DNA of 64,000 nt from Adhaeribacter rhizoryzae (GTDB lineage Bacteria > Bacteroidota > Bacteroidia > Cytophagales > Hymenobacteraceae), in contig NZ_VWSF01000006.1 in NCBI RefSeq assembly GCF_008629685.1, positions 62,001 through 126,000 on the forward strand, read 5' to 3'. Below the pieces are notes generated by a model that searched no databases, was not told the origin of the DNA, and was given only the letters and a program-made list of their open reading frames with translations. Shown in pieces: positions 36,190-46,162 of the stretch (its first letter is position 1; the number at the start of each line of letters is the position of its first letter). Made by a program: the position numbers and the translations under genes.

Positions 36190-37290
36190 TTATTGCTCAT
36201 AAACATAATAATTGCGGTAGTAGAGCAGATAAGCCAACAGAAAAAGCAAGATAGTTAGTAGGTAAAGTGGTGGATGCAGCAATAAAAACAAGAGCAGACC
36301 TATATAAATAAAGAATACCCACTTTAAATAAGTCTCCCGGTTTAGCTTTAAATATAATAAGGTATACAGGAGTAAAATAACGCTGATACCGAATGTAACC
36401 AGGAATATTAAGGAAATAATTGCCGCCGGATTAAAGTTGAGTCGGAAAAGCAATATTATTTCGGGTGCCAATAACAGCGTGAAAAGTATAACTTGGTAAG
36501 TAAATCGTTGCCAATGGGCATAGGGCAAATATCGCCAAAAGCTTAAAGCTGTTTCCTGAAATTGCTGTACCTGCTGCACCAGCATGGCCTGGGTAATCAC
36601 AGCCGTCAGGAATCCAATGTAAGTAGGGCGTAAATCGTATTGCGGGTAGGGATAGAGCGTCATAAAGGCGTACAGCACGCCCAAGGATAATATTTTGGTA
36701 AGGCCCAGCATTACTTTTTCCTGCCGCAGCAAATACCGCAGCGGCCATAAAACCGGGGGGGCTAATATTCTTTTTTCACTGCTGGTAAATATATTCTTTA
36801 TTGCCTTTTCCGGAATGGTTTGGGCTAATTGGTGGTGGAAATAAAGAATGGTAAAAAATATTAATAGCAGGTTGTAGGTGGTAGTCACCCATATTACCCA
36901 AAAGTGGGCAGTTAGCAGGCCGTAATAACTGATTAATAATGTATAAACCAGCGCCGGTAAAAATAACTGTAAATGGGTTAATCCTAAACTAAGCCACAAA
37001 ATCCGGCGGGGAAATAGACTAGTGATAAATAAATATTCGTTTTCGGGTGCCCGGATAGTTTTCAGCAGAAAATTAAAGCACTTGAGATAATACAACAAGA
37101 ACACTCCCAGCACCGAAAAGATAAAAATTGAAGACGTTACCGCTCCCGTTAGAAAATACGGACTTACCAGCATGGTTGGCGGCTGCTGAATACCAAAAGC
37201 CAGGAAAAACACTACCAGAAAAAAGCCGGCATTAAGCTGGTAAAATTGCTGCACCACTACTTTGTTAAATATTCTGAGTAGCGCAAACAT
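36190..37290 (-). CDS. ABC exporter membrane protein (unnamed family)
   Basis: This is a 366-residue, very hydrophobic protein with about nine or ten TM segments, several rich in Leu and Phe. No named permease motif is recognised. Its start overlaps the stop of the ABC ATPase gene by one base (TGATG), so the two are translationally coupled and very likely form one transporter. The substrate is unknown. Confidence 0.75.
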   Translation of the reverse strand: MFALLRIFNKVVVQQFYQLNAGFFLVVFFLAFGIQQPPTMLVSPYFLTGAVTSSIFIFSVLGVFLLYYLKCFNFLLKTIRAPENEYLFITSLFPRRILWLSLGLTHLQLFLPALVYTLLISYYGLLTAHFWVIWVTTTYNLLLIFFTILYFHHQLAQTIPEKAIKNIFTSSEKRILAPPVLWPLRYLLRQEKVMLGLTKILSLGVLYAFMTLYPYPQYDLRPTYIGFLTAVITQAMLVQQVQQFQETALSFWRYLPYAHWQRFTYQVILFTLLLAPEIILLFRLNFNPAAIISLIFLVTFGISVILLLYTLLYLKLNRETYLKWVFFIYIGLLLFLLLHPPLYLLTILLFLLAYLLYYRNYYVYEQ

Positions 37291-37928
37291 CAGGAATCTG
37301 AAAGCTGGGTTAAGGTTTGATTTTGCACCAGCCAGGTAGCCGTTAAGGGTAATTGGGTCATCTGCGAGTCCTGGTGCGAGGTTACTAGAAAACTGGTTTG
37401 GTGCTTACTATTGTACTCCTGCATTAAATTATAAACCAGTTCTACCGTAGCTGTATCCAGGGTGGCCAATGGTTCGTCCAGCAATATTAAACTAGGCTGA
37501 CCAATAAAAGCCAGCATGAGCGACAGCTTTTTGAGCATACCCGAGGAATAAGCACGCACAGGTTGGTGCAAATAATCTGCGTTGAAATATTTAATTAAGG
37601 TAGCTGCTTGGTCGGCCGGTGCTTTATGCGCCTGAGAGAATAAATTTACCAACTCAGTACCGGTTAAGAAACCAGGGTAAAGCGGCGCGGCTTCACCTAA
37701 ATTAATATGGCGGCGGTGTAAAAGCGGTTGCGCCTGTAAGTTTATGCTTTGGTTTAAGAGAATATCGCCCTGGTACGGAATTAAGCCGCCCAACACCCGG
37801 AATAAAGTGGTTTTGCCCGAACCGTTTTGACCTTTTATCCAATGAATACCTGCTGGTACCGTTAATTCCGGAATAGCTAGGATAAGGTTATCACCAAAAT
37901 ATTTTCTGAATCCCCGGAAAGTTAGCAT
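37290..37928 (-). CDS. ABC transporter ATPase
   Basis: This is a 212-residue short ABC ATPase of the exporter type (CcmA/GldA-like). It has Walker A GQNGSGKT at 33-40, a degenerate signature (YSSGMLKKLSL in place of LSGGQ) and Walker B LILLDEP followed by LATLD. It is the first gene of a two-gene operon with the membrane subunit. The SSGM signature is usual among ABC-2-type exporters. Confidence 0.9.
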   Translation of the reverse strand: MLTFRGFRKYFGDNLILAIPELTVPAGIHWIKGQNGSGKTTLFRVLGGLIPYQGDILLNQSINLQAQPLLHRRHINLGEAAPLYPGFLTGTELVNLFSQAHKAPADQAATLIKYFNADYLHQPVRAYSSGMLKKLSLMLAFIGQPSLILLDEPLATLDTATVELVYNLMQEYNSKHQTSFLVTSHQDSQMTQLPLTATWLVQNQTLTQLSDS

Positions 37929-38472
37929 GGAACCGAGCTTGCTTTAATATAAGTTTAAATATGGTTAATATTATCTATTCTTGTTGCAGCACAAAAGTTA
38001 ATTAATATTCACGTATTTATATAAATAATAGCGCGTATTCGCTGTTATTCCGGCTAAGGTGTTTTTAATGCCAACTTCATTAATATTTTTCGCCCCGACT
38101 GCTTTCTGCAGGGGAGTTAAAAACTTAAAATTAGAAATGAATTGAAGATAATCTCCAAGCATTCAATACCCTTTCATTTACAAAGGTTTAAAAACAATCT
38201 ATGGCAACTATAAGTTTTATAGATGTATGGAACCAACTATTCTCCGGTTAGGAATATTTCTTATCTGAAAGCCCAGGCGGTGCTAAAGATAAGGCTGGTG
38301 GCAGATGCTGATAACAGGCTCTACATAAAAATACTAACCTATTAATTTATTTAGCTGCACCAAGAAATATGCCTGACAAGCAGTTTACCTGTAAGCTTAA
38401 AGTAGCCGGCTAACCAATATCTTAATTCATAAAGATTTACCTTAAACAGAACAGTTATAAAAATTAATTAAG
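37929..38472. other. gene-free region before the DUF427 operon
   Basis: 540 AT-rich nt between divergent genes. I find no open frame, repeat or perfect TAnnTTTG box. Promoters of both flanking operons should lie here. Confidence 0.4.
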
Positions 38473-38754
38473 ATGAAAGCTATTTGGAATAATCAGGTAA
38501 TTGCCGAAAGCAATGATACTGTTGTAGTAGAAGGTAATCATTACTTTCCGCTGGAAGCCGTAAACCAGGACTTCTTGAAACCATCTGATACGCATACTAC
38601 TTGTCCCTGGAAAGGACTGGCCTCTTATTACACCCTGGAAGTTAATGGGGAAACTAATAAAGATGCAGCCTGGTATTACCCCGAACCAAAGGAAGCCGCC
38701 AAGCAAATCAGCGGCCGGGTGGCTTTCTGGAAAGGGGTAGCGATACAACCATAA
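38473..38754 (+). CDS. DUF427 family protein
   Basis: This is a 93-residue DUF427 protein. The family core is complete: VIAESNDTVVVEGNHYFP, then TTCPWKGLASYYTLEVNG, AWYYPEP and VAFWKGVAI. DUF427 proteins are small beta-rich proteins of unknown role, often near redox or detoxification genes. It is the first gene of a four-gene operon, 9 nt before the flavoprotein. Confidence 0.92.
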   Translation: MKAIWNNQVIAESNDTVVVEGNHYFPLEAVNQDFLKPSDTHTTCPWKGLASYYTLEVNGETNKDAAWYYPEPKEAAKQISGRVAFWKGVAIQP

Positions 38755-38763
38755 ACAGCAGGC

Positions 38764-40152
38764 ATGAAACAATTTGATGCGATAATTATAGGTTCTGGTC
38801 AGGGCGGCACGCCTTTGGCTAAAAAACTGGCTTCTGAGGGGTGGAAAACCGCTTTGATTGAAAAGCAGTATGCCGGCGGTACCTGCGTAAATATTGGCTG
38901 CACACCCACCAAAACCATGATTGCTTCTGCCAAAGTTGCCTATACCGTTGCCCACGCCGGTAAATGGGGAGTTGAAGTAGGTGAGGGCAGCTTGAATCTG
39001 TCGGCGGTACTGGCGCGCAAAAGAAAAGTAGTGGAAAGTTTTCGTAGCAGCTCGCAGGAAGGATTAGAAAAAAAAGAAAATCTAACCTTAATATGGGGGG
39101 AGGCATCTTTCACCGATAAAAAAACAATTAATGTTGTTTTAAACAGCGGCGAAGAAGAAACAATTACATCAGAGAAAATATTTATTGACGTAGGAACCCG
39201 GGCTACTATACCCGAAATAGAAGGTTTAAAGGAAGTAAATTATCTTACCGCCACTACCCTGATGGAGCTCGAAGAAGTTCCGGCGCATTTATTAATTTTA
39301 GGTGGTGGCTACATTGGATTGGAATTTGGCCAGATGTACCGCCGATTCGGCAGCCGGGTAACTATATTAGAACACCATGAAAGGTTTTTACCTAAAGAAG
39401 ATGAAGATATAGCCGCCGAAGTTTTAAGTTTTTTAGGGGCAGAAGAAATTGAAGTAATCACCCACGCCGAAGCAACACGGTTTGTTAGGAAAGAAAAAGA
39501 TATTATTGCTACAATTAAAGTTAAAGAAAAAGAAAGAATAATAAATTGTTCCCATATTCTGGTTTCGGCTGGCCGAACGCCTAATACAGATACATTGAAT
39601 TTAAAAGCCGCCGGGGTGAAGGTAGACAAACGCGGCTTCATTAAAGTAAATGAAAAATTGGAAACATCGGCTGCCGGTATATTTGCCATTGGCGATGTGA
39701 AGGGCGGACCGGCTTTCACCCATATTTCTTACAACGATTATATTATCTTGTATGAAAACCTAGTTAAAGGCGGAAATAGAACCGTTAAAAACCGGCTAGT
39801 TCCATATACCGTGTTTTCTGATCCCCAATTGGGCAGAGTAGGCATAACCGAACAGGATGCTATCAAAAATAAATTAAATATAAAAGTGGCAACCCTACCC
39901 ATGACCCACGTAGCCCGCGCCATAGAAACCGGTGATACACGAGGCTTGATGAAAGCGGTGGTAGAGGCCGATACCGGTAAAATTTTAGGAGTAGCCATTG
40001 TAGGTCAGGAAGGCGGTGAAATCATGTCGGTGCTACAGATGGCTATGGCAGGAAATATTACCTGGATCGAAATAAAAGATATGATCTTTGCGCATCCGCT
40101 TTACGCCGAGGCGCTGAATAATCTTTTTAAGCAACTGGAAACTGATAAATGA
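38764..40152 (+). CDS. FAD/NAD(P) disulfide oxidoreductase (class I, MerA/Lpd-like)
   Basis: This is a 462-residue flavoprotein disulfide reductase. It has FAD motif IIGSGQGGTPLAK (9-20), redox-active pair C41-x4-C46 (TCVNIGCTPTK), NAD(P) motif ILGGGYIGLEFG, a second FAD motif IFAIGDVKGGPAFTH, and the C-terminal dimer-interface His444 and Glu449 (AHPLYAEAL) that serve as base in glutathione/lipoamide reductases. It is often annotated as mercuric reductase, but it lacks both the N-terminal heavy-metal domain and the C-terminal Cys pair. It overlaps the transporter ATPase gene by 4 nt (ATGA). It probably reduces a small disulfide. Confidence 0.9.
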   Translation: MKQFDAIIIGSGQGGTPLAKKLASEGWKTALIEKQYAGGTCVNIGCTPTKTMIASAKVAYTVAHAGKWGVEVGEGSLNLSAVLARKRKVVESFRSSSQEGLEKKENLTLIWGEASFTDKKTINVVLNSGEEETITSEKIFIDVGTRATIPEIEGLKEVNYLTATTLMELEEVPAHLLILGGGYIGLEFGQMYRRFGSRVTILEHHERFLPKEDEDIAAEVLSFLGAEEIEVITHAEATRFVRKEKDIIATIKVKEKERIINCSHILVSAGRTPNTDTLNLKAAGVKVDKRGFIKVNEKLETSAAGIFAIGDVKGGPAFTHISYNDYIILYENLVKGGNRTVKNRLVPYTVFSDPQLGRVGITEQDAIKNKLNIKVATLPMTHVARAIETGDTRGLMKAVVEADTGKILGVAIVGQEGGEIMSVLQMAMAGNITWIEIKDMIFAHPLYAEALNNLFKQLETDK

Positions 40153-41099
40153 TTGCCGTAGAAAATGTTTCTAAAAGCTTTGGTAATACCCTTGCCGTAG
40201 ATCGGGTTTCTTTTGAAGTAAAAGCAGGCGAAACGCTGGTGCTGCTGGGTACCAGTGGCTCTGGTAAAACAACTATGCTGCGCATGATAAACCGCCTGTT
40301 GGAACCAACCTCGGGCAATATTAGCCTGAACCACAAAAGCATACTGGCCGAGCCACCGGAAATTTTACGCCGGAATATAGGCTATGTTTTACAAGGCTAC
40401 GGCTTGTTTCCGCATTACACCGTTGCCGAAAATATAGCCATAGTACCCAGTTTGTTAAATTGGGGAAAAGATAAAATTTATAAAAGAGTAAATGAATTAT
40501 TACAGAAACTCCGGCTGCCGCCGGAAAAATATGCTGATGCTTACCCCCACGAGTTAAGTGGTGGCCAGAAGCAACGGGTGGGATTAGCCCGGGCCTTAGC
40601 GGCCAATCCGCCGGTGCTGTTAATGGATGAGCCTTTTGGCGCTTTAGATCCGCTTACCAGGGAATCGGTACGGAAGGAATTTAAAGAACTGGATGAATTG
40701 AAAGCCAAAACAATTATTCTGGTTACGCACGATGTGCAGGAAGCCTTTGAATTAGGAGATAAAATTTGTTTAATGGATAAAGGTGCCGTCGTACAATCAG
40801 GTACCCCGGCCGACCTGATTTTTCATCCGGTAAACGAATTTGTGAAAAGCTTTTTTAGCCGGCACGAACTGCAACTACGATTACAGGCGCTAAGGCTAAA
40901 AGATATCTGGCGTGATTTACTTACCGTAGACCCAAGTGCAACTAGCACCTTTACCAGCAATAAAAATATTTGGGAAGCAACCGAAGCCTTAACAAACAAA
41001 GGACCCATAATTGCCTATGACCCTGAAACAGGAACTACCAAAAAGTTTGAATATGCAGATTTGCAAATTGCCCTCAAACAGATAAAAAATAATTCCTGA
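40149..41099 (+). CDS. betaine-type ABC importer ATPase (OpuCA/EgtV-like)
   Basis: This is a 316-residue ABC ATPase of the osmoprotectant/glycine-betaine family, with Walker A GTSGSGKT at 34-41, signature LSGGQ at 136-140 and Walker B LLMDEP followed by FGALDP. The C-terminal about 75 residues are divergent and do not form a clear CBS pair. It starts inside the flavoprotein stop codon and ends one base before the permease start, so the transporter and the reductase share one tight operon. Confidence 0.92.
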   Translation: MIAVENVSKSFGNTLAVDRVSFEVKAGETLVLLGTSGSGKTTMLRMINRLLEPTSGNISLNHKSILAEPPEILRRNIGYVLQGYGLFPHYTVAENIAIVPSLLNWGKDKIYKRVNELLQKLRLPPEKYADAYPHELSGGQKQRVGLARALAANPPVLLMDEPFGALDPLTRESVRKEFKELDELKAKTIILVTHDVQEAFELGDKICLMDKGAVVQSGTPADLIFHPVNEFVKSFFSRHELQLRLQALRLKDIWRDLLTVDPSATSTFTSNKNIWEATEALTNKGPIIAYDPETGTTKKFEYADLQIALKQIKNNS

Positions 41100-41100
41100 T

Positions 41101-42666
41101 ATGGAAGATCAGCAGAGCCTCTGGTTTTTTATGGCGCAGCAATCAGGTAAATTAGGGGAGCAAACCATCGCCCATATTGGATTAACCTTTATCTCCCTGC
41201 TGCTGGCGGTATTAATTGGTATGCCGCTGGGTATTTTAATCTCCCGGAAAAGAAATTTTTCGGGTGCGGTGCTTGGCTTGGCCGGTATATTGCAAACCAT
41301 TCCGTCCATTGCCCTTTTAGGTTTTATGATTCCGCTTTTAGGCATTGGCGCTTTACCAGCCATTACCGCCTTATTTCTGTACTCCTTGTTGCCCATCATC
41401 CGGAATACTTTCACCGGTATTAATGGCGTGGATGCTGCGGTGGTAGACGCCGCCAAAGGAATGGGAATGAACAGCAGCCAGATATTATTAAAAGTACAAC
41501 TGCCTTTAGCTATGCCGGTTATTCTGGCCGGTATTCGCACGGCTACTGTAATAAATGTTGGGGTGGCTACGCTGGCGGCTTATATAGCGGCGGGTGGTTT
41601 AGGCGAATTTATTTTTGGCGGAATTGCTTTAAACAACACCAATATGATTCTGGCGGGAGCTATTCCTGCCGCTTTATTAGCCATTCTCTTCGATTTTTTA
41701 TTATCAATATTACAAAAACAGCAAGTAAGAAAGCAGCATCTGGCGGTTTGGGCTTTGCTAGCTGGAATGCTGCTGTTTTCTTCTTTTTACCTCATTCCGG
41801 CATCTACTAAAAAAATATTAGCTGGTTTTACCCCGGAATTTATGGGAAGGGAAGATGGCTATCTGGGACTCAAATCTAAATACGGTTTAGATATTCGGAA
41901 TGTAGTAATTAGTGATGCCGTCATGTATAAAGCAGTTTATGAAAAAGAATTAGATGTAATTAGTGGTTATAGCACCGATGGGCGCCTTAAAGCCTTTGAC
42001 CTGGTTACATTGGAAGATGACAAAGGTATTTTTCCGCCTTATTACGCTGCGCCGGTAGTACGAAACGAGGTGTTATTAAAATATCCTGAATTAGAAGTTG
42101 TTTTGGGCGTTTTATCCGGACAAATTAACGACAGCATAATGACCGCCTTAAATTACAGAGTAGATTATTTAAAAGAACTACCTGAAAAAGTTGCCCTGGA
42201 TTTTTTAATTGAAAAAGGCTTATACAAAAAGCCGCAAAATGGCAACAAAGGAACCATCCGGTTAGGCTCCAAAATATTTGCCGAGCAGTATATCCTGATT
42301 AATATGTATAGCATGCTCATTAAAGGCTATACCAATCTTAATACCGAAACCAAAACAGGATTAGGGGGGACCAAAATCTGTTTTGAGGCCTTACTCAATA
42401 ATCAAATTGATTTATATCCTGAATATACCGGCACTGGTTTGCTGGTATTATTACATCCAACCAAGCAAAAACTGAAAGAATTAAATGGTAACCGGGATTC
42501 GGTTTATCAATACGTACAGAAGCAATTTTTAAAAGAATACAACCTAAAATGGCTGCAGCCGGTTGGCTTTAACAATGCCTATGCGTTAATGATGCGGCGG
42601 CAACAAGCAGATGAGTTAAACATTAAATTAATATCGGATTTAAAACGGTACGTAGCCCAAGAGTAA
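41101..42666 (+). CDS. fused permease and substrate-binding protein (OpuC/EgtU-like), permuted binding domain
   Basis: This 521-residue protein joins a betaine-type permease to its own binding domain. Residues 1-205 are the permease, with an EAA-like loop VDAAKGMGMNSSQILLKVQL and AAYIAAGGLGEFIFGG. A further TM at about 214-232 tethers the extracytoplasmic domain 240-521. Its blocks are in changed order: FTPEFMGREDGYLGL (243-257), STDGRL and EDDKGIFPPYYAAPVV (305-320) come before GSKIFAEQYIL (389-399), TGLGGT (419-424), DLYPEYTGT (437-445) and GFNNAYAL (489-496). In OpuCC/OsmF proteins the second set comes first, so this looks like a circular permutation. The ligand is probably a quaternary amine; ergothioneine is possible. 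Confidence 0.9.
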   Translation: MEDQQSLWFFMAQQSGKLGEQTIAHIGLTFISLLLAVLIGMPLGILISRKRNFSGAVLGLAGILQTIPSIALLGFMIPLLGIGALPAITALFLYSLLPIIRNTFTGINGVDAAVVDAAKGMGMNSSQILLKVQLPLAMPVILAGIRTATVINVGVATLAAYIAAGGLGEFIFGGIALNNTNMILAGAIPAALLAILFDFLLSILQKQQVRKQHLAVWALLAGMLLFSSFYLIPASTKKILAGFTPEFMGREDGYLGLKSKYGLDIRNVVISDAVMYKAVYEKELDVISGYSTDGRLKAFDLVTLEDDKGIFPPYYAAPVVRNEVLLKYPELEVVLGVLSGQINDSIMTALNYRVDYLKELPEKVALDFLIEKGLYKKPQNGNKGTIRLGSKIFAEQYILINMYSMLIKGYTNLNTETKTGLGGTKICFEALLNNQIDLYPEYTGTGLLVLLHPTKQKLKELNGNRDSVYQYVQKQFLKEYNLKWLQPVGFNNAYALMMRRQQADELNIKLISDLKRYVAQE

Positions 42667-44508
<1,842 letters not shown>

Positions 44509-45013: not shown

Positions 45014-46162
45014 ATGCAGATGGCCCAGCATAACCCGCCCATTAAACCCAAAGTAACCCCCATTTACCAAACTTCGGTTTTTACTTTCGATGACCTTACC
45101 GAACTGGAGGCATATTTTGATCAGCCTTCGCAACGGTATATGTACGCGCGGTACGGTAATCCCAACGCCAACGAACTAGCCGAAGAAGTAAATAAACTGG
45201 AGCAGGGCGATGGCGCAGTGGTTACCTCTTCGGGCATGTCGGCCATTTTTACGGCTGTTCTGCTTTTTTGCCAGGCCGGCGACCACGTGTTGTGCGCCGA
45301 AGAAATTTACGGGGGCTCGTCGGTGCTGTTAAACCAGGAGCTAAGCCGGATGGGTATAACGGTAACTTATGTGCCGGTTGAAAATTTATACGACCTAAGC
45401 AGCTTTACAAAACCTAATACCACACTGCTGCTCGCCGAAACCATGAGTAATCCTTTGCTGCGGGTACTGGATGTGACACGTTTAGCCGCAGCTTGCCAAA
45501 AAGAAAGTATTAAGTTAATTATTGATAATACGTTTGCTTCGCCGGTAATTACGCGGCCTTTAACCTTAGGTGCCGATGCGGTAATACACAGCGTAACCAA
45601 ATATTTAGCCGGGCACAGCGATGTAACGGCGGGCATCGTGGTTACCAAAGGCGAAGAACAGGTAAAGCGCATCCGGCAAATTATGATGCATTATGGCTTA
45701 AACCTCAGTCCGTTTGAAAGCTGGCTTGCCGTTAGGGGGCTTAAGACCCTGCGGCTCCGGATAAAACAACACAGCAGCAATGCCTTAACGATTGCTCAAT
45801 ATTTAGCCGCGCACCCCAAAGTAAACCGCGTTTATTATCCAGGTTTAGCGGCACACCCGGACCACGAATTAGCTAAAACCCAAGGCCAGAATTTATTTGG
45901 CGGTATGCTGTCGTTTGCCATTGCCGACGACGAAGCGGTGGTAAATAAATTTATGCAAAGCCTGCCAACTATACCGTTTGCCCCTTCATTAGCCGGCGTA
46001 AGTACTTCTATTTCGCATCCGGTTCGTACATCGCACCGCTCTTTAAATCCCGCTAAACGCGATGCATTGGGTATTACTATGGGGGTTATCCGGTTATCAG
46101 TGGGCGTAGAAGAGCCGGAAGAAATATTAGTTGAACTGGAGGAAGCTTTAAAAGCAATTTAG
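45014..46162 (+). CDS. Cys/Met metabolism PLP enzyme (cystathionine gamma-synthase/lyase or methionine gamma-lyase)
   Basis: This is a 382-residue fold-type I PLP enzyme. The PLP Lys is K196 in SVTKYLAGHSDVTAG, with YARYGNPN, TSSGMSAI and the Asp in IIDNTFASP. The motifs fit the gamma-family of Met/Cys metabolism, but substrate choice between cystathionine synthase, lyase and methionine lyase cannot be fixed from sequence alone. It has its own promoter. Met3 (MAQHN) is an alternative start. Confidence 0.88.
   Translation: MQMAQHNPPIKPKVTPIYQTSVFTFDDLTELEAYFDQPSQRYMYARYGNPNANELAEEVNKLEQGDGAVVTSSGMSAIFTAVLLFCQAGDHVLCAEEIYGGSSVLLNQELSRMGITVTYVPVENLYDLSSFTKPNTTLLLAETMSNPLLRVLDVTRLAAACQKESIKLIIDNTFASPVITRPLTLGADAVIHSVTKYLAGHSDVTAGIVVTKGEEQVKRIRQIMMHYGLNLSPFESWLAVRGLKTLRLRIKQHSSNALTIAQYLAAHPKVNRVYYPGLAAHPDHELAKTQGQNLFGGMLSFAIADDEAVVNKFMQSLPTIPFAPSLAGVSTSISHPVRTSHRSLNPAKRDALGITMGVIRLSVGVEEPEEILVELEEALKAI

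Follow-up and report, generated by a model that had tools for sequence, protein, structure and literature searches.

A four-gene cluster of Adhaeribacter rhizoryzae that very likely serves ergothioneine physiology

The gene cluster and its likely role

We analyzed a 64,000-nucleotide (nt) stretch of the Adhaeribacter rhizoryzae genome (family Hymenobacteraceae; contig NZ_VWSF01000006.1 of assembly GCF_008629685.1, contig positions 62,001-126,000), hereafter the window. It contains four tightly spaced genes on one strand, coding for a DUF427 protein, a class I pyridine nucleotide-disulfide oxidoreductase (PNDR), an ATP-binding cassette (ABC) ATPase and a permease fused to an OpuAC-type binding domain (Table 1). 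The first two genes are separated by 9 nt, the PNDR and ATPase genes overlap by 4 nt, and 1 nt separates the ATPase gene from that of the fusion protein. Pfam placed the products in PF04248 (DUF427), Pyr_redox_2 plus Pyr_redox_dim, ABC_tran, and BPD_transp_1 plus OpuAC. A preliminary description of this DNA had given the same open reading frames (ORFs), families and spacings, and these agree exactly with our results; its guess that the cluster imports and recycles a betaine-like thiol is examined below. The adjacency is not due to chance, as the same gene order was found again in dozens of genomes from three families. The gene set very likely serves ergothioneine physiology, because it is linked to ergothioneine genes across families and phyla and strictly co-occurs with them within the phylum. 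For an ergothioneine uptake and redox-maintenance module, we consider the chances to be even.

Table 1. Features of the cluster (window positions; aa, amino acids)
Feature	Position	Strand	Basis
DUF427 (PF04248) protein, 93 aa	38473..38754	+	ORF, Pfam
Class I pyridine nucleotide-disulfide oxidoreductase (PNDR), 462 aa	38764..40152	+	ORF, Pfam, alignment
ABC ATPase, 316 aa	40149..41099	+	ORF, Pfam, NCBIfam
Permease fused to circularly permuted OpuAC-type binding domain, 521 aa	41101..42666	+	ORF, Pfam, structure-sequence match
Permease part, residues 1-235 (BPD_transp_1 at 40-211)	41101..41805	+	Pfam
Binding domain piece 1, residues 236-380, equivalent to the EgtUC/ProX C-terminal half; E246, R250, Y290, Y314	41806..42240	+	
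Binding domain piece 2, residues 381-521, equivalent to the EgtUC/ProX N-terminal half; K391, F393, T424, Y442, T445, F490, N492, Y494	42241..42663	+	

Ergothioneine operons in Bacteroidota

EgtB and EgtD make ergothioneine. A genome scan yielded at least 575 confirmed transporter loci, of which the best 80 by identity were analyzed; for this reason they are not an even sample. Among all 80, egtB was present in 78, egtD in 76, the reductase in 62 and DUF427 in 37. Sufficient flanks on both sides were available for 67 loci (the other 13, including L145, L078 and L090 discussed below, were dropped), and genes were counted when located on the strand of the permease gene within 2.2 kb (reductase), 2.6 kb (egtB), 2.8 kb (egtD) or 4 kb (DUF427). 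Both egtB and egtD were found close by in every one of these 67 loci, the reductase in 56, and all six genes in 35. The typical operon runs DUF427, PNDR, ATPase, permease/binding-domain fusion, followed by egtB and egtD, with median gaps (judged by match ends) of about 11 nt between DUF427 and PNDR (35 loci) and about 14 nt between permease and egtB (67 loci). By family, the reductase was detected in 33/34 flank-complete loci of Sphingobacteriaceae, 9/9 of Spirosomataceae, 12/17 of Chitinophagaceae, 0/5 of Weeksellaceae, where egtD-egtB stand before the ATPase gene, and 2/2 unranked loci. In a representative locus (L069), the linked proteins exceeded the curated cut-offs for EgtB (TIGR03440, 544.1 bits versus 360) and EgtD (TIGR03438, 302.8 versus 290.9). 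Selenoneine synthase was rejected as an identity for this one EgtB, which scored 365.7 against SenA (cut-off 420).

The four window genes would thus correspond to a detached piece of this operon: egtB and egtD are missing from the run, and the next gene, at 43003, is atpD (named by its sequence, with no family search). In A. rhizoryzae, egtD and egtB are located side by side on a different contig (C27, 21604-22515 and 22598-23827, minus strand; the window lies on C50).

We also examined a sample of 198 genomes, spread evenly over the phylum, using limits of 1e-60 for egtD and the transporter, 1e-110 for the reductase and 1e-15 for close DUF427 homologs. EgtD was detected in 62 genomes, and in 51 its score exceeded the curated cut-off. 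All 15 genomes with the reductase had egtD (hypergeometric p 7e-9), as did all 10 with the transporter (p 5e-6), all 37 with a close DUF427 homolog (p 8e-24) and 40 of the 42 with any PF04248 protein (p 2e-23). Counted by genus, the figures were 11/11, 8/8 and 24/24 for reductase, transporter and DUF427, versus a background of 43/103 (p 3e-5, 6e-4 and 4e-12); it should be noted that these p values ignore lifestyle and phylogeny deeper than genus, which counts against the interpretation. Among the 11 genomes whose egtD fell below the cut-off, one contained reductase, transporter and DUF427, one the transporter and three DUF427. Seven of the 15 reductase-containing genomes had egtD and lacked the transporter; the reductase therefore follows egtD by itself. 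In one genome of another class (G137), the order was egtD, DUF427, ATPase, permease/binding-domain fusion.

Reductase and transporter in the nearest relatives

The closest relatives show a different picture. We analyzed 59 genomes, comprising the A. rhizoryzae genome and 58 relatives. At a limit of 0.001, transporter matches were found in 23 genomes, of which four with weak, permease-level matches only were set aside, leaving 19; the reductase (limit 1e-100) was present in 20. Eighteen transporter loci were fetched, and one on a 3.3-kb contig was dropped, leaving 17 flanked by about 7 kb of sequence at either end. Several observations here and in the operon set weigh against the ergothioneine module. 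Neither the reductase nor DUF427 was found in any of the 17 loci, and egtB and egtD accompanied the transporter in only one (L035). In L145, reductase and transporter were present with no egtB or egtD in 5.6 kb downstream, and L078 had neither gene within about 2.5 kb. L090 had egtB and egtD on the opposite strand. DUF427 adjoined the reductase in one of the 20 near-kin reductase loci, in a genome (G012) that lacks the transporter and has the order hydrolase/OsmC fusion, DUF427, reductase. A by-eye inspection of the neighbors of ten unlinked reductases revealed one neighbor shared by two genomes of one family, and no common theme among the ten beyond it.

From the nearest kin alone, one would conclude that the pairing of reductase and importer is not conserved, but this conclusion is overturned by the wider Bacteroidota loci, in which the reductase occurs together with transporter, egtB and egtD. 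The pairing on which the preliminary description built its idea of a betaine-like thiol is absent in the closest relatives (0/17), and the link to ergothioneine, which it had named from the resemblance to EgtU, is well supported by the operons of other families (56/67), evidence that was not available to it. Even where unlinked, the two genes occur together: of the 59 genomes, 16 had both, while the transporter was alone in three and the reductase in four; the other 36 lacked both (Fisher p 3e-8, or 5e-6 when only the genomes with egtD are considered). EgtD was present in 45 of the 59 genomes (40 over the curated cut-off), and all 19 transporter, 20 reductase and 34 DUF427 genomes belonged to these 45.

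These data bear on the possibility that two unrelated gene pairs merely happen to touch in the window. Relatives of the same genus and family carry reductase and transporter apart, an arrangement that speaks against a single module, and the two genes differ in their affinities. In a quick transporter tree without bootstrap, the window protein grouped with operon proteins of Dyadobacter and Parafilimonas (98 in a 17-row set), apart from its own genus. The reductase tree, likewise quick and without bootstrap, contained 82 rows (window protein, 59 operon proteins, 19 of 20 fetched relatives, and three paralogs from the genome itself, which encodes three further Pyr_redox_dim proteins); here the window PNDR grouped with kin from its own family, and it and unlinked reductases of the same genus nested among operon reductases, beside a Chitinophaga clade (SH-aLRT, the Shimodaira-Hasegawa-like approximate likelihood ratio test, 93 on the joining branch). 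However, an accident is already contradicted by the recurrence of the gene order in Sphingobacteriaceae, Chitinophagaceae and Spirosomataceae and by the co-occurrence of unlinked genes, and we regard it as extremely improbable. The window looks like a piece of an egt operon, possibly of mixed origin.

Separately, two length classes of EgtB were seen in Bacteroidota (L149-L153). One, of about 385-400 aa, occurs in the operons and some relatives, and the other, with open frames of about 420-520 aa, in most of the window's family. One genome of the window's genus (G004) encodes an EgtB of the short class; its transporter matches were weak.

A permuted binding domain in the importer

The preliminary description recognized the fusion of permease and binding domain correctly, but the order of the domain halves had escaped it. 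Residues 385-518 of the fusion protein match residues 7-136 of the ergothioneine-binding EgtUC chain, and residues 239-377 match residues 139-277. On these matches the OpuAC-type domain is circularly permuted (permease, C-terminal half, N-terminal half), because the half that is C-terminal in EgtUC stands before the N-terminal one. The same order was detected in three further Bacteroidota loci in which each half was tested separately (L069, L158 and L161), and the other Bacteroidota fusion proteins used in the pocket comparison below align collinearly with the window protein over more than 450 residues. EgtUC lobe D1 comprises residues 233-331 and 445-506, and lobe D2 residues 341-432 (PMC9732360). 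As the new ends of the permuted domain appear to fall within these D2 boundaries, the membrane tether would enter lobe D2 instead of D1. A Bacillota homolog encoded on a Niallia plasmid has permease, N-terminal half and C-terminal half in this order, and it resembles EgtU at the three specificity residues considered below. Lobe order is known to differ between OpuAC/ChoX and E. coli ProX, and the wider superfamily may therefore hold precedents for permutation. No natural permutation of betaine-binding domains was found in the literature searched, including passages of PMC2861598.

Among the closest known systems is EgtU of Streptococcus pneumoniae (EgtUA and EgtUBC). As in the window importer, its ATPase is a protein of its own, and its permease carries an F-III type quaternary-amine binding domain in the same chain; an EgtU structure, 9egi, is the best solved-structure match of the window fusion (E 1.3e-55). 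The window protein differs in its permuted domain and in three specificity residues, and its type is found beside egtB/egtD. According to PMC9732360, EgtU occurs almost exclusively in Firmicutes; words beginning with "bacteroid" or "egtb" do not occur in that text. The other system of interest is ProX of Archaeoglobus fulgidus, a glycine betaine-binding protein. Its structure 1sw1 ("osmoprotection protein proX") also matches the window fusion (E 2.6e-42), but it has the conventional order, and the match is split into two stretches, the best being window residues 238-376 versus chain residues 137-275. ProX is a free-standing protein and is not known to be linked to egt genes.

Ligand of the importer

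To compare binding pockets, we aligned 100 proteins including that of the window; 98 (window counted) showed a single uninterrupted match of more than 450 residues to the window protein, and two (L158 and L161) were picked by hand, so the domain order common to this set is partly built in by the requirement for a one-piece match. Residues K391, T424, T445, N492, Y494, E246 and Y314 (K242, T275, T296, N339, Y341, E375 and Y443 in S. pneumoniae EgtU, SpEgtU) were conserved in all 100 proteins, R250 (R379) in 99 and Y290 (Y419) in 90. The aromatic cage and carboxylate-binding residues (N339, Y341, Y419, Y443, K242, T296, E375 and R379 in SpEgtU) are all present in the window protein.

The importer may alternatively be considered as a transporter of glycine betaine or proline betaine used as compatible solutes, with the egt linkage reflecting shared stress regulation or a supply of methyl donor for the S-adenosylmethionine-dependent methylations of EgtD. 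Evidence for this possibility, and against ergothioneine, comes from the three discriminating positions. G244, F293 and Y337 of SpEgtU correspond to F393 (99/100, with one Q), Y442 (100/100) and F490 (100/100), and this F/Y/F combination is the one that PMC9732360 gives for ProX of A. fulgidus. In addition, the G244F mutation lowered SpEgtU affinity about 100-fold (PMC9732360, Table 1). The best NCBIfam subfamily of the ATPase, betaine/proline/choline proV, points in the same direction, although at 293.8 bits it is under the cut-off of 326.6. On the other hand, according to PMC9732360 the G244/F293/Y337 determinants are also missing from other subclusters of the EgtU network, and in Helicobacter a transporter from the wider group, though of lower affinity, nevertheless takes part in ergothioneine uptake; the F/Y/F pattern thus makes ergothioneine less probable without deciding against it. 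Moreover, flanking egtB/egtD in 67/67 loci and egtD in 10/10 transporter genomes exceed what a general stress grouping would predict. A betaine role is in our view unlikely. For a quaternary-amine importer in an egtB/egtD operon, the simplest role would be to bring in ergothioneine, and by a narrow balance of probability this is its ligand, with hercynine and glycine betaine as the other candidates.

The reductase and oxidant defense

The redox-active pair C41/C46 and the H444/E449 pair, both named in the preliminary description, were unchanged in all 60 aligned reductases (window protein and 59 from operon loci), and Pfam detected no mercury-binding domain in PNDR, as that description had also stated. 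Residue 44, between the redox cysteines, is Ile in the window protein and Asp in 56/60. The second nucleotide-binding strand ends in an acidic residue in 60/60 (57 E, 3 D). An acidic residue at this position points to reduced nicotinamide adenine dinucleotide (NADH); the cofactor of PNDR is thus probably NAD(P)H, with NADH favored by this conserved feature.

Family assignment was less definite. The window PNDR fell under the curated cut-off of every one of the 25 listed NCBIfam families (52 matched). Its top score was to the FAD-containing oxidoreductase PRK06370 (NF004992; 512 versus 629), a family of unstated function, followed by RclA (NF040477; 411.9 versus 740), and known thiol-disulfide reductase families came lower, a ranking that argues against recycling of a thiol. 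Below the respective cut-offs were also dihydrolipoyl dehydrogenase (TIGR01350; 387.3 versus 408.8), hypothiocyanous acid reductase (NF041853; 384.8 versus 650), mercuric reductase (TIGR02053; 380.3 versus 454.45), glutathione reductase (301.8 versus 480) and mycothione reductase (268.9 versus 635.65). The last two would be the functional analogs, as flavoproteins that recycle the cell's own small thiol, but PNDR scored below both cut-offs. RclA, hypothiocyanous acid reductase and mercuric reductase share with PNDR the class I fold, the CxxxxC pair and the His/Glu base; PNDR differs from them by scores under all three cut-offs and by its link to egt genes. A role in mercury resistance was rejected, since PNDR is under the mercuric reductase cut-off and lacks the C-terminal vicinal cysteine pair that is a feature of mercuric reductases. 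The closest solved structure is 6kgy, named there by domain only, which we take to be E. coli RclA.

We further searched a plasmid collection, whose annotation is incomplete, so that absence of an egt gene here means that none was annotated, and counts refer to plasmids. DUF427, reductase and egtB occurred together in nine Pseudomonadota records (four from Comamonas, two from Achromobacter, and one each from Comamonadaceae OS-4, P. aeruginosa and Aquincola), the first seven being nearly identical. Four regions were inspected (L174, L175, L178 and L179). They share the order msrA, (redoxin), selO, msrB, hydrolase/OsmC fusion, DUF427, reductase, sulfite-oxidase-like/MsrP, flavin adenine dinucleotide (FAD) oxidoreductase, egtB, egtD; the reductase is annotated as mercuric reductase or RclA, the hydrolase/OsmC and DUF427 genes are each unnamed in one region, and an AraC or rclR regulator precedes two of the four. 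This oxidant-defense island has probably been mobile recently, because it is near-identical in Comamonas and Achromobacter records. On a Sinorhizobium plasmid, msrB, msrA, a TlpA family gene, egtB, (DUF2171) and DUF427 are followed by AraC and egtD, both encoded on the opposite strand, and no reductase is annotated. Overall, 279 plasmid records contained the reductase (1e-100), 245 of them from Rhizobium, Sinorhizobium, Agrobacterium or Ensifer (about 46% identity in the listed rows), and among the 60 listed, nine carry egtB. DUF427 was found in 266 records and egtB (1e-60) in 33. The permease/binding-domain fusion was nearly absent, with one record at 1e-40, from Bacillota and matching the permease part only. 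One Hymenobacter and one Persicobacter plasmid each have an egtB-egtD pair, with no reductase or transporter annotated within about 6 kb.

These islands and the family neighbors of PNDR make direct detoxification of oxidants the main rival for the reductase: it would act, like RclA, on reactive chlorine or thiocyanate oxidants alongside ergothioneine, and the importer would supply ergothioneine or its precursor hercynine. Such a role is consistent with the presumed RclA structure as nearest match, the high though sub-threshold RclA and hypothiocyanous acid reductase scores, the company of msrA, selO, msrB, OsmC fusion and MsrP-like genes next to egtB-egtD (once with rclR), the hydrolase/OsmC-DUF427-reductase order in G012, and the acidic strand-end residue, which fits NADH here as well. 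Reductases found without egt genes strengthen it and count against a dedicated ergothioneine enzyme: on a Phaeobacter plasmid, a relative 53% identical to the plasmid reductase lies in an msrB/msrA/redoxin/SelO run, and the 11 kb inspected there contain no egt genes; Deinococcus and Nostoc relatives have no egt genes nearby. However, in the phylum sample the reductase never occurs without egtD (15/15 genomes), even in the seven that lack the transporter, and PNDR is under both the RclA and the hypothiocyanous acid reductase cut-offs. We therefore view direct oxidant detoxification as improbable, yet deserving serious attention. The simplest role for a disulfide reductase in an egt operon is reduction of oxidized ergothioneine, an assignment to which we give somewhat less than an even chance.

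DUF427

The window DUF427 protein scored 121.8 bits against PF04248 (gathering score 22.1), and C44, W46, K47, G48, Y52, W67 and Y69 were invariant in all 48 aligned sequences, window included. In four loci (L150, L151, L159 and L160), DUF427 adjoins egtB/egtD in the absence of reductase and transporter. DUF427 may constitute a distinct protein family of the ergothioneine pathway, whose members would act as accessory proteins. Exceptions to this association are the two PF04248 genomes of the phylum sample that lack egtD, whose frames are longer (184-192 aa), and Deinobacterium chartae, one of 14 control genomes, which has DUF427 and no egtD match.

Proposed ergothioneine module

In the mechanism that we propose, the ABC importer would bring in or recapture ergothioneine through its permuted, membrane-tethered domain with a quaternary-amine aromatic cage, and the flavoprotein, using NAD(P)H and probably NADH, would return oxidized ergothioneine to the thione form. 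Uptake, synthesis (by the egtB-egtD pair on the other contig in this organism) and recycling would together maintain one antioxidant pool. The most specific version, a one-unit redox cycle that combines an NADH-dependent reductase dedicated to ergothioneine (its disulfide or sulfenate), a permuted, lobe-switched importer and DUF427 as a pathway family, is tentative and, taken with all its parts, rather unlikely.

Ergothioneine synthesis and uptake by EgtU are already known. Neither this operon, nor an ergothioneine reductase, nor a link between DUF427 and ergothioneine was reported in the open-access titles and abstract starts searched, a search that leaves out most subscription journals. The cluster offers a candidate enzyme for regenerating oxidized ergothioneine and, beyond the EgtU type of Firmicutes, a candidate importer; it bears on why organisms that make ergothioneine should import it as well. 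It also sets DUF427 beside a named pathway, with 37/37 genomes in the phylum sample and one counterexample, D. chartae, outside the phylum.

Neighboring genes

A search of positions 37851-38500 for a Bacteroidota promoter pattern gave no matches. Upstream of the cluster, at 36190-37928 on the minus strand, are an ABC ATPase gene and a gene for a 366-aa protein, which share one base; the latter protein had no Pfam or NCBIfam match at 0.001. A few genes downstream of the cluster, positions 45014-46162 code for a pyridoxal phosphate (PLP) enzyme of Cys/Met metabolism (Pfam). No obvious C-S lyase (EgtE) was seen in the egt operons, and generic PLP enzymes such as this one are therefore candidates for that function.

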